Positions 11,623 to 21,292 of a DNA stretch of 21,292 nt are shown in pieces; the first letter of the stretch is position 1; each line of letters starts with the position of its first letter. Location: positions 4,127-25,418 of the forward strand of contig JAUNHS010000007.1 in NCBI GenBank assembly GCA_030523805.1. Reading direction: 5' to 3'. Below the pieces are notes generated by a model. The model searched no databases, had not been told where the DNA came from, and saw only the letters and a program-made list of their open reading frames with translations. Position numbers and translations under genes: made by a program. This DNA comes from Acinetobacter sp. (GTDB taxonomy: Bacteria > Pseudomonadota > Gammaproteobacteria > Pseudomonadales > Moraxellaceae).

Positions 11623-11628
11623 AAACCC

Positions 11629-11748
11629 AACTTGACGGAGTACAGCCAAGCAGCTGTTGAGATTGTCTTATTTTCATTTAAAAATGCACAAATTACAGAC
11701 AAATACCGTTGAACCTGATGCAGTTCATACTGCCGTAGGAATCAAGTT
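11629..11748 (+). ncRNA. TPP riboswitch (THI element) upstream of thiC
   Basis: Leader aptamer that binds thiamine diphosphate and lowers thiC expression. P1 pairs AACTTGA (11629-11635) with TCAAGTT (11742-11748); P2 pairs CGG with CCG (11706-11708); P3 pairs ACAGC (11642-11646) with GCTGT (11653-11657), followed by the conserved TGAGA (11658-11662); a long variable arm is closed by TTGTC/GACAA; the pyrophosphate side has CCTGAT (11714-11719), then GCAGT/ACTGC and GTAGGAA. All conserved boxes are present. Downstream, a second copy of the P1 3' strand (AATCAAG, 11749-11755) and CTTGATT (11788-11794) can compete for pairing near the ribosome site. Confidence 0.93.
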
Positions 11749-11800
11749 AATCAAGAACCCCATTCCCTTGGCGGCATTCTTTATTGGCTTGATTTGTTAA

Positions 11801-13714
<1,914 letters not shown>

Positions 13715-19069: not shown

Positions 19070-19435
19070 ATGAGTTATTATCATATTTTAATTGAATGCA
19101 AAGATTATATTAGCACCATAGAACAAACCCGAGATATAGAACTATTTGATATACAAGAGATTAAAGGCTATCTTACGCCTGTACTTTTACCTTATTTTCA
19201 TGAGCAAAGTTTAACCATAGATGATGAAGAAATTGCCTTTGAAGATGTATTGCATTTAACCATTCGCCAAACATTATTGCCGATTGGTGAGTTGATTCAG
19301 CAAGAGCAACGCCTATTACCAAGCGATACCGATATTACCATCAGTGCGTATGAAATTTTTAACGATCGCAGTTTAAGTCGTGATGTTACCAGCGTGGTGT
19401 TTGACTTGATTGAAGCGTTAAATGATGTGGAATAA
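19070..19435 (+). CDS. Unrecognised acidic protein (121 aa)
   Basis: ATG 19070 is preceded by GGGAG with six bases between, and the stop is followed by a clear terminator, so this is very likely a real gene. The product is acidic, has no signal peptide or membrane span and few Cys (one, Cys10), and looks mostly helical (IEQTRDIELFDIQEIKGYL; SVVFDLIEALNDVE). I recognise no domain. It is divergent from the YcgN-family gene and convergent with a small RNA and recD. It could be a lineage-specific cytoplasmic protein; no function is proposed. Confidence 0.8.
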   Translation: MSYYHILIECKDYISTIEQTRDIELFDIQEIKGYLTPVLLPYFHEQSLTIDDEEIAFEDVLHLTIRQTLLPIGELIQQEQRLLPSDTDITISAYEIFNDRSLSRDVTSVVFDLIEALNDVE

Positions 19436-19459
19436 GTTCATCAAGCTCAAATGAAAATG

Positions 19460-19488
19460 AAAGCAATCAAGCAAAGATTGCTTTTTTT
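19460..19488 (+). terminator. Terminator of the 121-aa gene
   Basis: AAAGCAATC (19460-19468) pairs perfectly with GATTGCTTT (19476-19484), followed by more T. Confidence 0.88.
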
Positions 19489-19524
19489 ATGCTTAAAATT
19501 TAGGTTAATAGATAAAAAATATAG

Positions 19525-19672
19525 AAAAAACAAAGCCTTGCAATCTCTCCCAAAATTACAAGGCTTAGTGGTTTAGCAACCTCTATCTACCTGCATCCTG
19601 CAAGCCTCTAAAATTACTATGCGGAGCGACAAGAATTTTAGAGATAGTACCCAACGTCCTGTTTGGTTATGC
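19525..19672 (-). ncRNA. Probable structured small RNA with GGA-loop hairpins (CsrA/RsmA-sponge-like)
   Basis: This fills the gap between the 121-aa gene and recD. On the minus strand an extended -10 (TGTTATAAT, TATAAT at 19684-19679) predicts a start near 19672. The RNA folds into: hairpin 1, CCAA/TTGG around loop ACAGGACG (19666-19651); hairpin 2, a perfect 10-bp CTCTAAAATT/AATTTTAGAG with an 18-base loop (19643-19606); hairpin 3, CUUGCA-GGA-UGCAGG (19604-19590); a small GGTT-GCTA-AACC; and a terminator with a 15-bp stem and loop GGGA (19566-19533), then a T-rich tail. GGA in three loops, two of them near the CsrA consensus, suggests CsrA/RsmA sequestration. No long reading frame is present. 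The RNA call is fairly firm; the role is inference. Confidence 0.6.
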
Positions 19673-19678
19673 ATTCAT

Positions 19679-19687
19679 ATTATAACA
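19679..19687 (-). promoter_or_regulatory. Extended -10 promoter of the small RNA
   Basis: The minus strand reads TGTTATAAT, with consensus TATAAT at 19684-19679. A weak -35, TTGCAT, lies 15 bases upstream. No GacA-type TGTAAG palindrome is visible upstream. Confidence 0.6.
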
Positions 19688-19754
19688 TACGATAAATTTA
19701 TGCAATAGTCCAAAGGGTAAAAAATTGCAAAGAATGTAAAAAAATATGAATGAA

Positions 19755-21292
19755 TTAATTGCTTGATAAAGAATAATAACTTTCTACCTTTTTGACCAAT
19801 CGGCTTGAGCGTTGGGTTTTATTGTGCAAGGCATCTTGCAAAGCCTGTTCGGTGTACCACAAACTCAACGCATTTTTAGCACGAGTAATGGCAGTATAAA
19901 GCAATTCTTGACTGAGTAAGCGTTCTGCACCATCATCAAGCACCACAGCGGTATGGTTAAATTCTGAACCTTGAGATTTGTGAATGGTCATGGCAAAGGC
20001 TGTTTGAATATCTTTCGGTAGGCGAGCGGCAGGATACCAACGCTCTAAACTTGGAAAATACACCATAAATTGCTGATCGGCTGTTTCACCCAAGCATAAG
20101 CCAATATCACCATTGGATAAATCAAGTTGATAGTCGTTATGTGTCATCATGACTGCTTTACCAAAGTACCATGTAGATTTGTGCTGATGAGCTGATGGGA
20201 AGATATGCTGTTTGATGTAATTTTCACAGTGTAGGTTGAGCTGTTCCACACCAAAGTTGCCTTGTTGTGTCGCTGTTAAAACTCTATAATAATCAAAGGC
20301 TTCACATATTTTATTAACAATTTCATTGCTAGATGTGGTAAGTGTTTCACGTTGTGGGTAATAGCGTTTTAATTGTTCGGCATAATGTGCAAAACCTTGA
20401 ATAATATCATCATGATGGACGTGTGAGCTTAATGGGTAGCCATGGGCAAATTCTGTCGCTGCTGTGGTATCTGCATGGCTTTTTAGCGTGAGTAATTGTT
20501 TAAACGCTTGGCTAGATGGTTTGCTTGTTTCATTGTTAAAGCATTGTTCTATAAAGAATTTTGCTAATTTTCCAATCGGGTTGTCATCAGAAAAGCGGCG
20601 ACTTTTCAGTAAGTGCTGACGATTATGCTCTAGTGCGTTGATGTGTTGCAAATCGGCAAGCACTGAACCAACATCTACCGATGCCAATTGATTTACATCG
20701 CCCAATAAAATTAAACGGCATGATGTAGGAATGGCTTCAAAGAGCTGTCGTGCGAGATTTAAATCTAGCATTGACGCTTCATCTACCACGATGACATCGT
20801 AAGGCAACGGATTTTTGGCATGGTAGCGAGCTTGCTGTGTGTAGCCCAAACCAAGTAAACGATGTAGAGTGATGGGTTGCTGTTGTTTTAATTTTTCTTT
20901 TGCCGTAGAAAAATCTTGTGGTAAACGATTGGCAGCACCTTGCAAGGCTTCTTTCATACGCTGGGCGGCTTTACCTGTCGGAGCTGCCATGGCAATGCGT
21001 ATGTCTGCTTGCCAATCTAATAAAATGGCAATAATTTGTGAGAGTGTGGTGGTTTTTCCTGTTCCTGGCCCGCCTGTGATAAGTGTAAAGCGTTGTGTTA
21101 ATGCGTGGCGTAATGCACTTTCTTGATGTTGGTCTAGGTCTTGGCTGTGTTTGATTTTGGCAATGGCAAGGTTTAAATCTTGTGTCTCATGTGCTGTATT
21201 CTGCTCGCTGTGTTGTGTTGCGTGTGGTGTGGCAAGTTGTTGAATATATTGAGCAAGTTGCATTTCCCAGTACCAATAACGATACAATGCCA
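19755..21292 (-). CDS. recD: Exodeoxyribonuclease V alpha subunit RecD (N-terminus outside window)
   Basis: RecD is the fast 5'-3' helicase subunit of RecBCD, which processes double-strand ends for recombination. About 512 residues are visible; the frame is open through the window end (ALYRYWYWEMQLAQYI fits the family block LYLxRxWxxE), so roughly the first 100 residues lie outside. Motifs: Walker A ITGGPGTGKTTT, Walker B VVDEASMLDL, motif III LLGDVNQLASVDVGSVLADL, and near the C-terminus FAMTIHKSQGSEF and LLYTAITRAK. These show an intact SF1B helicase core. recB and recC are not in the window but would be expected upstream. The stop is followed, on the same strand, by the small RNA promoter. 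Confidence 0.96.
   Translation of the reverse strand, partial: ALYRYWYWEMQLAQYIQQLATPHATQHSEQNTAHETQDLNLAIAKIKHSQDLDQHQESALRHALTQRFTLITGGPGTGKTTTLSQIIAILLDWQADIRIAMAAPTGKAAQRMKEALQGAANRLPQDFSTAKEKLKQQQPITLHRLLGLGYTQQARYHAKNPLPYDVIVVDEASMLDLNLARQLFEAIPTSCRLILLGDVNQLASVDVGSVLADLQHINALEHNRQHLLKSRRFSDDNPIGKLAKFFIEQCFNNETSKPSSQAFKQLLTLKSHADTTAATEFAHGYPLSSHVHHDDIIQGFAHYAEQLKRYYPQRETLTTSSNEIVNKICEAFDYYRVLTATQQGNFGVEQLNLHCENYIKQHIFPSAHQHKSTWYFGKAVMMTHNDYQLDLSNGDIGLCLGETADQQFMVYFPSLERWYPAARLPKDIQTAFAMTIHKSQGSEFNHTAVVLDDGAERLLSQELLYTAITRAKNALSLWYTEQALQDALHNKTQRSSRLVKKVESYYSLSSN

Follow-up and report, generated by a model that had tools for sequence, protein, structure and literature searches.

A candidate CsrA-sequestering small RNA downstream of recD in Acinetobacter and the genus-wide family of recD-linked RNAs

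The small RNAs RsmX, RsmY and RsmZ of Pseudomonas and CsrB and CsrC of enteric bacteria present GGA motifs in unpaired loops, are preceded by a GacA box and end at terminators of their own. A short minus-strand segment downstream of recD in Acinetobacter sp. raises the question whether a further RNA of this type, one that would keep CsrA away from mRNAs, is encoded there, as an earlier note on this DNA had proposed. We addressed this question within the window, i.e., the entire 21,292-nucleotide stretch of DNA analyzed here, within the genome to which it belongs (G000, assembled as 1.85 Mb in 220 contigs, at 90% completeness), and across related genomes. On the sequence evidence presented below, the proposal is supported as that of a candidate, short of proof.

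The RNA gene beside recD in the window

The sequence, the strand and the coordinates (19525..19687, minus) that the earlier note assigned to the gene proved correct; the gene spans 19687-19525 of the minus strand and the RNA is about 140-150 nt long, with transcription probably starting near 19672. The claimed extended -10 element, TGTTATAAT, is located at 19687-19679(-), but such a motif by itself is no proof of a promoter: TGNTATAAT is found in three copies in the window versus 1.5 expected by chance, for which reason the promoter motif alone was rejected as evidence, and a sigma-70 scan of 19400-19800 listed no two-hexamer promoter. The intrinsic terminator, also claimed previously, is a 15-pair stem capped by a 4-nt loop and followed by a T run, at 19566-19533(-), with T extending to 19525. 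The assertion that the RNA has no reading frame turned out to be slightly overstated, given that the gene is overlapped by an ATG-initiated open reading frame of 33 aa (19674-19573, minus strand) and by TTG-initiated frames of 23 and 28 aa.

Table 1. Features of the recD-linked RNA gene and its surroundings in the window
Feature	Position	Strand	Remarks
recD	19755..21287	-	C-terminal 510 aa read in the window; TIGR01447, 398 bits; same-strand upstream neighbour of the RNA gene
Extended -10, TGTTATAAT	19679..19687	-	Sequence motif
Hairpin 1, CCAAACAGGACGUUGG	19651..19666	-	Predicted fold; loop GGA at 19659-19657; aligned by model R1 to GGA hairpin 1 of the family
Hairpin 2, AU-rich 10-bp stem CUCUAAAAUU/AAUUUUAGAG	19606..19643	-	Predicted fold; no GGA; CUCC near the tip
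Hairpin 3, GCUUGCA-GGA-UGCAGGU	19589..19605	-	Loop GGA at 19598-19596; aligned by model R1 to the CUUACAGUGAAGUAAG hairpin of the family
Intrinsic terminator	19525..19566	-	15-pair stem followed by a T run; the tip, UUUUGGGAGAGA (19555-19544), hardly varies within the genus
Terminator-like site	19459-19485		Downstream, near the convergent 121-aa ORF
Convergent ORF, 121 aa	19070..19435	+	Downstream of the RNA gene; no NCBIfam or Pfam match

The predicted fold of the RNA is better than those of dinucleotide-shuffled sequences, with z = -3.3 for the 163-nt form and z = -3.1 for the 146-nt form, for which one of 200 shuffles was equally good. All three GGA motifs fall into predicted hairpin loops, exactly where they had been placed before, an arrangement that was seen in none of 1000 dinucleotide shuffles (two loop GGAs appeared in 10 of the 1000). 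The number of GGAs as such is not enriched, at least three being present in 498 of 1000 shuffles, so the count alone was rejected as evidence. One of the three loop GGAs is the terminator tip, the conservation of which may have another reason than CsrA binding, leaving only two outside the terminator, in hairpins that are 61 nt apart. For hairpin 2, no counterpart was seen in the family consensus structure, described below.

When the whole window was compared with Rfam, the only match at the gathering score was a TPP riboswitch (11626-11758, 65.1 bits) that lies upstream of thiC (11822-13714). None of the CsrB, CsrC, RsmX, RsmY and RsmZ families matched at this threshold, and no Csr/Rsm family was detected near the locus at E values up to 5, nor in 20 relatives and 8 further loci (that of the window included) at E values up to 1. 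Matches obtained at the locus with permissive E values (rli28, E = 2.2; STnc250, 0.56; and others) were at the chance level and were rejected. A confident match to an unrelated RNA class, which the earlier note had named as refuting its proposal, was thus not obtained. As would be expected of a genome with a GacA-controlled Rsm small RNA, the window genome encodes CsrA (117.5 bits; cut-off, 73) together with a UvrY/SirA/GacA-type regulator and a BarA/GacS-like kinase, the latter two with scores (261 and 505 bits) that are below the curated cut-offs of the respective models (280 and 890). A GacA-type regulator and a GacS-like kinase were each found in all ten genomes searched, never above the curated cut-offs; the lowest kinase scores were those of G193 (483), discussed below, and of the window genome (505), the other eight being in the range of 551-577.

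A genus-wide family of recD-linked RNAs

When the window RNA was used as a BLAST query, matches were obtained in 57 of the 58 other Acinetobacter genomes searched and in none of 36 genomes from outside the genus, nearly always confined to the terminator part. Scanning the genome collection with a terminator pattern yielded 106 stretches, 105 of them titled Acinetobacter and one Moraxellaceae bacterium; in 101 of these, RecD, encoded on the same strand, ends 199-243 nt ahead of the terminator, and the other five terminators are near a stretch end. Of the 106 hits, 105 were clustered (one, without sufficient room, was left out), and the resulting 38 sequences, one per cluster, comprise alignments A1 and A2; a covariance model, R1, was likewise built from 38 pattern-hit sequences. 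Because the search pattern fixed the terminator, that element hardly varies in A2. A larger alignment, A3, consists of 85 loci picked from those fetched, with paralogues elsewhere in the genomes excluded and the weakly matching G136 left out before counting; since A3 was fitted to the R1 structure, its pair counts lean towards that structure.

Of the 175 genomes of the genus, R1 matched 174; the remaining one, G136, gave a weak match (E = 3.5e-4) with laxer filters. Among 249 sampled genomes of the family Moraxellaceae, 95 matched, including five outside the genus: four belong to one other genus (E from 1.6e-5 to 6.6e-5), and the match in genus g45 (G279, E = 8.6e-4) was not accepted as a member because it looks like a gene end followed by an unrelated terminator. 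The four homologous RNAs from the other genus (L237-L240) have GGAs in hairpins 1 and 2. Their terminator is a different one, and the box-like element that goes with them reads TGTGAG-N6-CTCACA or, in L240, TGTAAG-N6-CTCACA.

The loop GGA of hairpin 1 is present in 84 of the 85 members of A3, and the stem of this hairpin shows two-sided changes at all six pairs, with none of 500 column shuffles as high on any measure; the result was repeated on A2, a MAFFT alignment, where at most one of 500 shuffles was as high. Thus, upon the alignment of related loci that the earlier note had called for, the GGA of this hairpin is retained while the stem changes, with G193 as the exception. In 76 of 85 members, a GGA is found within the 42 nt that precede the terminator, and hairpin 2 has a GGA in 16 of 85 by the script count, which includes the four homologues from the other genus, the window and a G193 entry that is an unclean reading of the loop. 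Altogether, the family RNAs contain two to five GGAs each (85 members), so the expectation that the window would harbor a compact variant with few sites is borne out for the family as a whole and is not special to the window. Of 17 relatives whose RNA folds were predicted, 13 have a loop-GGA count that no more than 2 of 100 shuffles attained; in the remaining four, G193 and the other genus among them, the count was not clearly above the shuffles (6, 6, 9 and 19 of 100).

The most conserved part of the RNA is the terminator tip UUUUGGGAGAGA, which is preserved while the stem below it covaries. Two-sided changes were detected at 6 of the 15 pairs of this stem in A3, the top four pairs next to the tip (U-A/U-G) are invariant where present, and the tip GGGAGA is shared by 81 of the 85 members, i.e., by all 81 from Acinetobacter, the other four being those of the other genus; G136, outside A3, carries UUGGGAGAU. 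Such near-invariance goes beyond what the sequestration of CsrA alone requires.

The family RNAs resemble rsm genes in having a palindromic box upstream. The palindrome TGTA(A/C/G)G-N6-C(T/G)TACA, which has the form of the GacA box of rsm genes, precedes the RNA in 104 of the 106 stretches and is missing from L044 and from L104, which is truncated by the end of its stretch; among recD-linked members, 79 of 82 have a box with at most three mismatches to TGTAAG-N6-CTTACA. On the RNA strand of the 106 stretches, there are 178 boxes, of which 104 are located before the RNA, 74 downstream of it and none elsewhere. The downstream boxes (stretches L033-L138) are 71-289 nt past the start of the terminator of the first RNA, and each heads a second small-RNA gene, which is accordingly present in 74 of 106 stretches, with a script-found terminator in 71 of the 74. 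The RNAs of the second genes contain from zero to five GGAs (five have none), and many of them have GGA hairpins such as ACAUGGAAUGU. The two box-headed genes are a tandem Rsm-like locus beside recD.

Several genomes have extra copies of the RNA, some of these on small contigs; three to six R1 matches per genome were obtained in G145, G201, G125, G181, G023, G037, G202 and G208. Extra copies elsewhere in some genomes (L242-L250) keep the GGGAGAGA tip, some have CGAAAAG where others have CGGAAAAG, and some are without a loop GGA. One extra copy matches 42 plasmid records, all from Acinetobacter, and a search against phage records with an extra copy gave no match. The plasmid-matching copy owes its membership to the terminator; with the body model, it reached only E = 0.062. 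In 12 of the 42 plasmid records, no feature is listed under the match, although the gene table of the collection is incomplete, and in two records that were examined a replication-initiation gene is within 1.6 kb of the copy.

The window copy and its nearest relative

The window RNA is matched by R1 from end to end (54.4 bits, E = 1.3e-9), mostly through the terminator, and it shares with the family both this terminator and the place by recD. The R1 alignment puts hairpin 1 of the window on hairpin 1 of the family and the window CUUGCAGGAUGCAGG on the family CUUACAGUGAAGUAAG; this shared order of elements is seen only in the R1 alignment and on its own carries no significance. With the terminator left out, a sequence profile of the body finds neither the window RNA nor the body of G193, which we call the nearest relative on RecD alone (the best score among 174 other genomes of the genus, with 54% identity). 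With a structure model of the body, R2, two homologues from the other genus were recovered at E = 2e-4 and 2.5e-3, as were, at E = 9e-9 and 2e-7, two divergent members from Acinetobacter that had not gone into the model, whereas the window scored 11.8 bits (E = 1.1), the fifth of 16 chance-level matches, and the G193 body was not found. It is by the shared terminator and place, and by these only, that the window gene may be taken to descend from the genus-wide recD-linked gene.

The window copy and G193 also differ from the family in their upstream regions. Near the window gene, there is no GacA-type box with up to two mismatches and the best site has five; shuffles of the upstream stretch gave a best site with four or five mismatches in 438 of 500 cases, so we do not file the window RNA as GacA-controlled. 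The upstream region of G193 is similarly without a box (best site, six mismatches), and a scan of the window genome with the box pattern, omitting TGTACG, a form common in relatives, revealed one site, on another contig, a result that we do not take to prove that boxes are lacking. The -10 element is TATAAT in both genomes, the G193 sequence TGATATAAT occupying the same place as TGTTATAAT of the window, as opposed to GAAGAT, GATGAT and similar variants in 35 of 38 relatives (the other three rows were misread by the parser). The loss of the box and the replacement of the weak -10 of the relatives by TATAAT suggest that the RNA is probably made without GacA. In G193, moreover, the hairpin-1 loop is AAGAU and its GGA is lost, one GGA being kept in the body, within CGUUCAAUGGAUUAACG, in addition to that of the tip. 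As only some 90 nt separate the window gene from the convergent ORF, there is no second RNA gene at that place in the window.

Alternative readings and biological implications

The features described above are best interpreted, for the family, as those of an RsmX/Y/Z-like CsrA sponge. For the window RNA, a role as an RsmX/Y/Z- and CsrB/C-like sponge that titrates CsrA at GGA loops is, in our estimation, the probable one, by a modest measure, because of the loop GGAs, the fixed GGA that the family keeps in a covarying stem, the box found in relatives and a genome that encodes CsrA and Gac proteins; the dissimilarity of the window body once the terminator is removed, the lack of the box and the loss of the GGA in G193 all count against it. 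The sponge reading fits the genus-wide family better than the window's own copy. According to this reading, an untranslated RNA of about 140-150 nt, provided that it is expressed, would present GGA hairpin loops to which CsrA would bind; CsrA would thereby be titrated off mRNAs, so that the mRNAs it holds would be freed, and CsrA binding would be the main job of the RNA. The window RNA is similar to RsmX/Y/Z and CsrB/C in its loop GGAs, in having its own terminator and in residing in a genome with CsrA, a GacA-type regulator and a GacS-like kinase, but unlike these RNAs, it belongs to a group with no Rfam match, with two to five GGAs per RNA and with a nearly invariant GGGAGAGA tip, and the window copy itself is without the box.

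The invariance of the tip is what gives weight to the alternative that we are dealing with a base-pairing regulatory RNA, in which UUUUGGGAGAGA pairs with C/U-rich mRNAs or with the CUCC seed of a small RNA such as Aar, the GGAs being incidental. The tip stays constant in Acinetobacter while its stem varies, extra copies elsewhere in some genomes retain GGGAGAGA, and a CUCC seed is indeed used by Aar of A. baumannii (excerpts of PMC11472050). However, base pairing leaves unexplained the fixed GGA in the covarying hairpin 1, the GacA-type box and the GGA hairpins of the second RNA, and we regard it as unlikely. A little less doubtful, if still no better than tentative, is a combination in which the RNA is a CsrA sponge that has been uncoupled from Gac in a small-genome lineage, with the GGA loops of an ancestral Gac-controlled RNA retained, the box lost, a consensus promoter, constitutive titration of CsrA and GacS/GacA left for other uses, and in which the tip has a second, RNA-pairing or protein-binding role across the family. 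Alternatively, the window gene could be a decayed orphan that has lost the box and most of the sponge body in a small genome and now mainly serves to end recD transcription. The body is unrecognizable and the box lost in both the window genome and G193, where the hairpin-1 GGA is gone as well; yet the -10 is a consensus one in both genomes, and the window RNA places all its GGAs in loops more consistently than its shuffles, so we consider decay quite improbable. Finally, the product might be a short protein of 33 aa starting from the ATG at 19674. The reading frame exists and would be nearly leaderless, but it has no match among the NCBIfam families, and the RNA family shows compensatory changes and small insertions typical of a structured RNA, which makes translation a highly improbable explanation.

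Several RNAs from the literature are relevant to the sponge reading. Excerpts of PMC5568370, which cites an earlier prediction (Kulkarni 2006), describe two additional RsmA-regulating RNAs predicted in Acinetobacter ADP1, at ACIAD0018/0019 and ACIAD2750/2751, and these share with the present RNAs the genus and the proposed role; in an excerpt of PMC7366521, A. baumannii is listed with CsrA and bracketed RsmX/Y/Z. In A. baylyi DSM 14961, the RNA gene is flanked by recD and a LipE-like gene and lies some 2.4 kb away from pnp; in this assembly, dnaA and recD, which were compared with regard to ACIAD0018/0019, are on different contigs. Perhaps the family is already among the Acinetobacter predictions. 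In the literature searched, a limited library, no recD-linked Csr RNA of Acinetobacter was found, and we make no claim that the family is unpublished. Like the window RNA, RgsA of Pseudomonas is a Gac-linked small RNA with few GGAs; as described in the consulted excerpts of PMC2375449, it carries a single GGA motif, lacks a GacA-type box, did not relieve the repression of hcnA by RsmA and did not sequester RsmA, which counts against a sponge role of the window RNA with its two non-terminator GGAs. Aar is a small RNA conserved in Acinetobacter, with a promoter that is down 1.4-fold without GacS; it pairs through a 5' seed in which CUCC occupies positions 29-32, and the words CsrA, CsrB and Rsm are absent from the main text (PMC11472050). 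The window RNA resembles Aar in having CUCC, in hairpin 2 (19643-19606), at position 47 of the R1 match, and it is alone in this among the 85 members, so that, judging by the seed alone, identity of the family with Aar is unlikely.

Acinetobacter possesses CsrA and GacS/GacA, and in the literature excerpts at hand the RNAs that would connect them are only predicted. A covariance model for an RNA at a fixed genomic place, together with a tandem partner gene and plasmid copies, make the Gac-Rsm-CsrA branch directly testable in A. baylyi, and the window contributes what may be a natural instance of a sponge that has escaped from Gac control.
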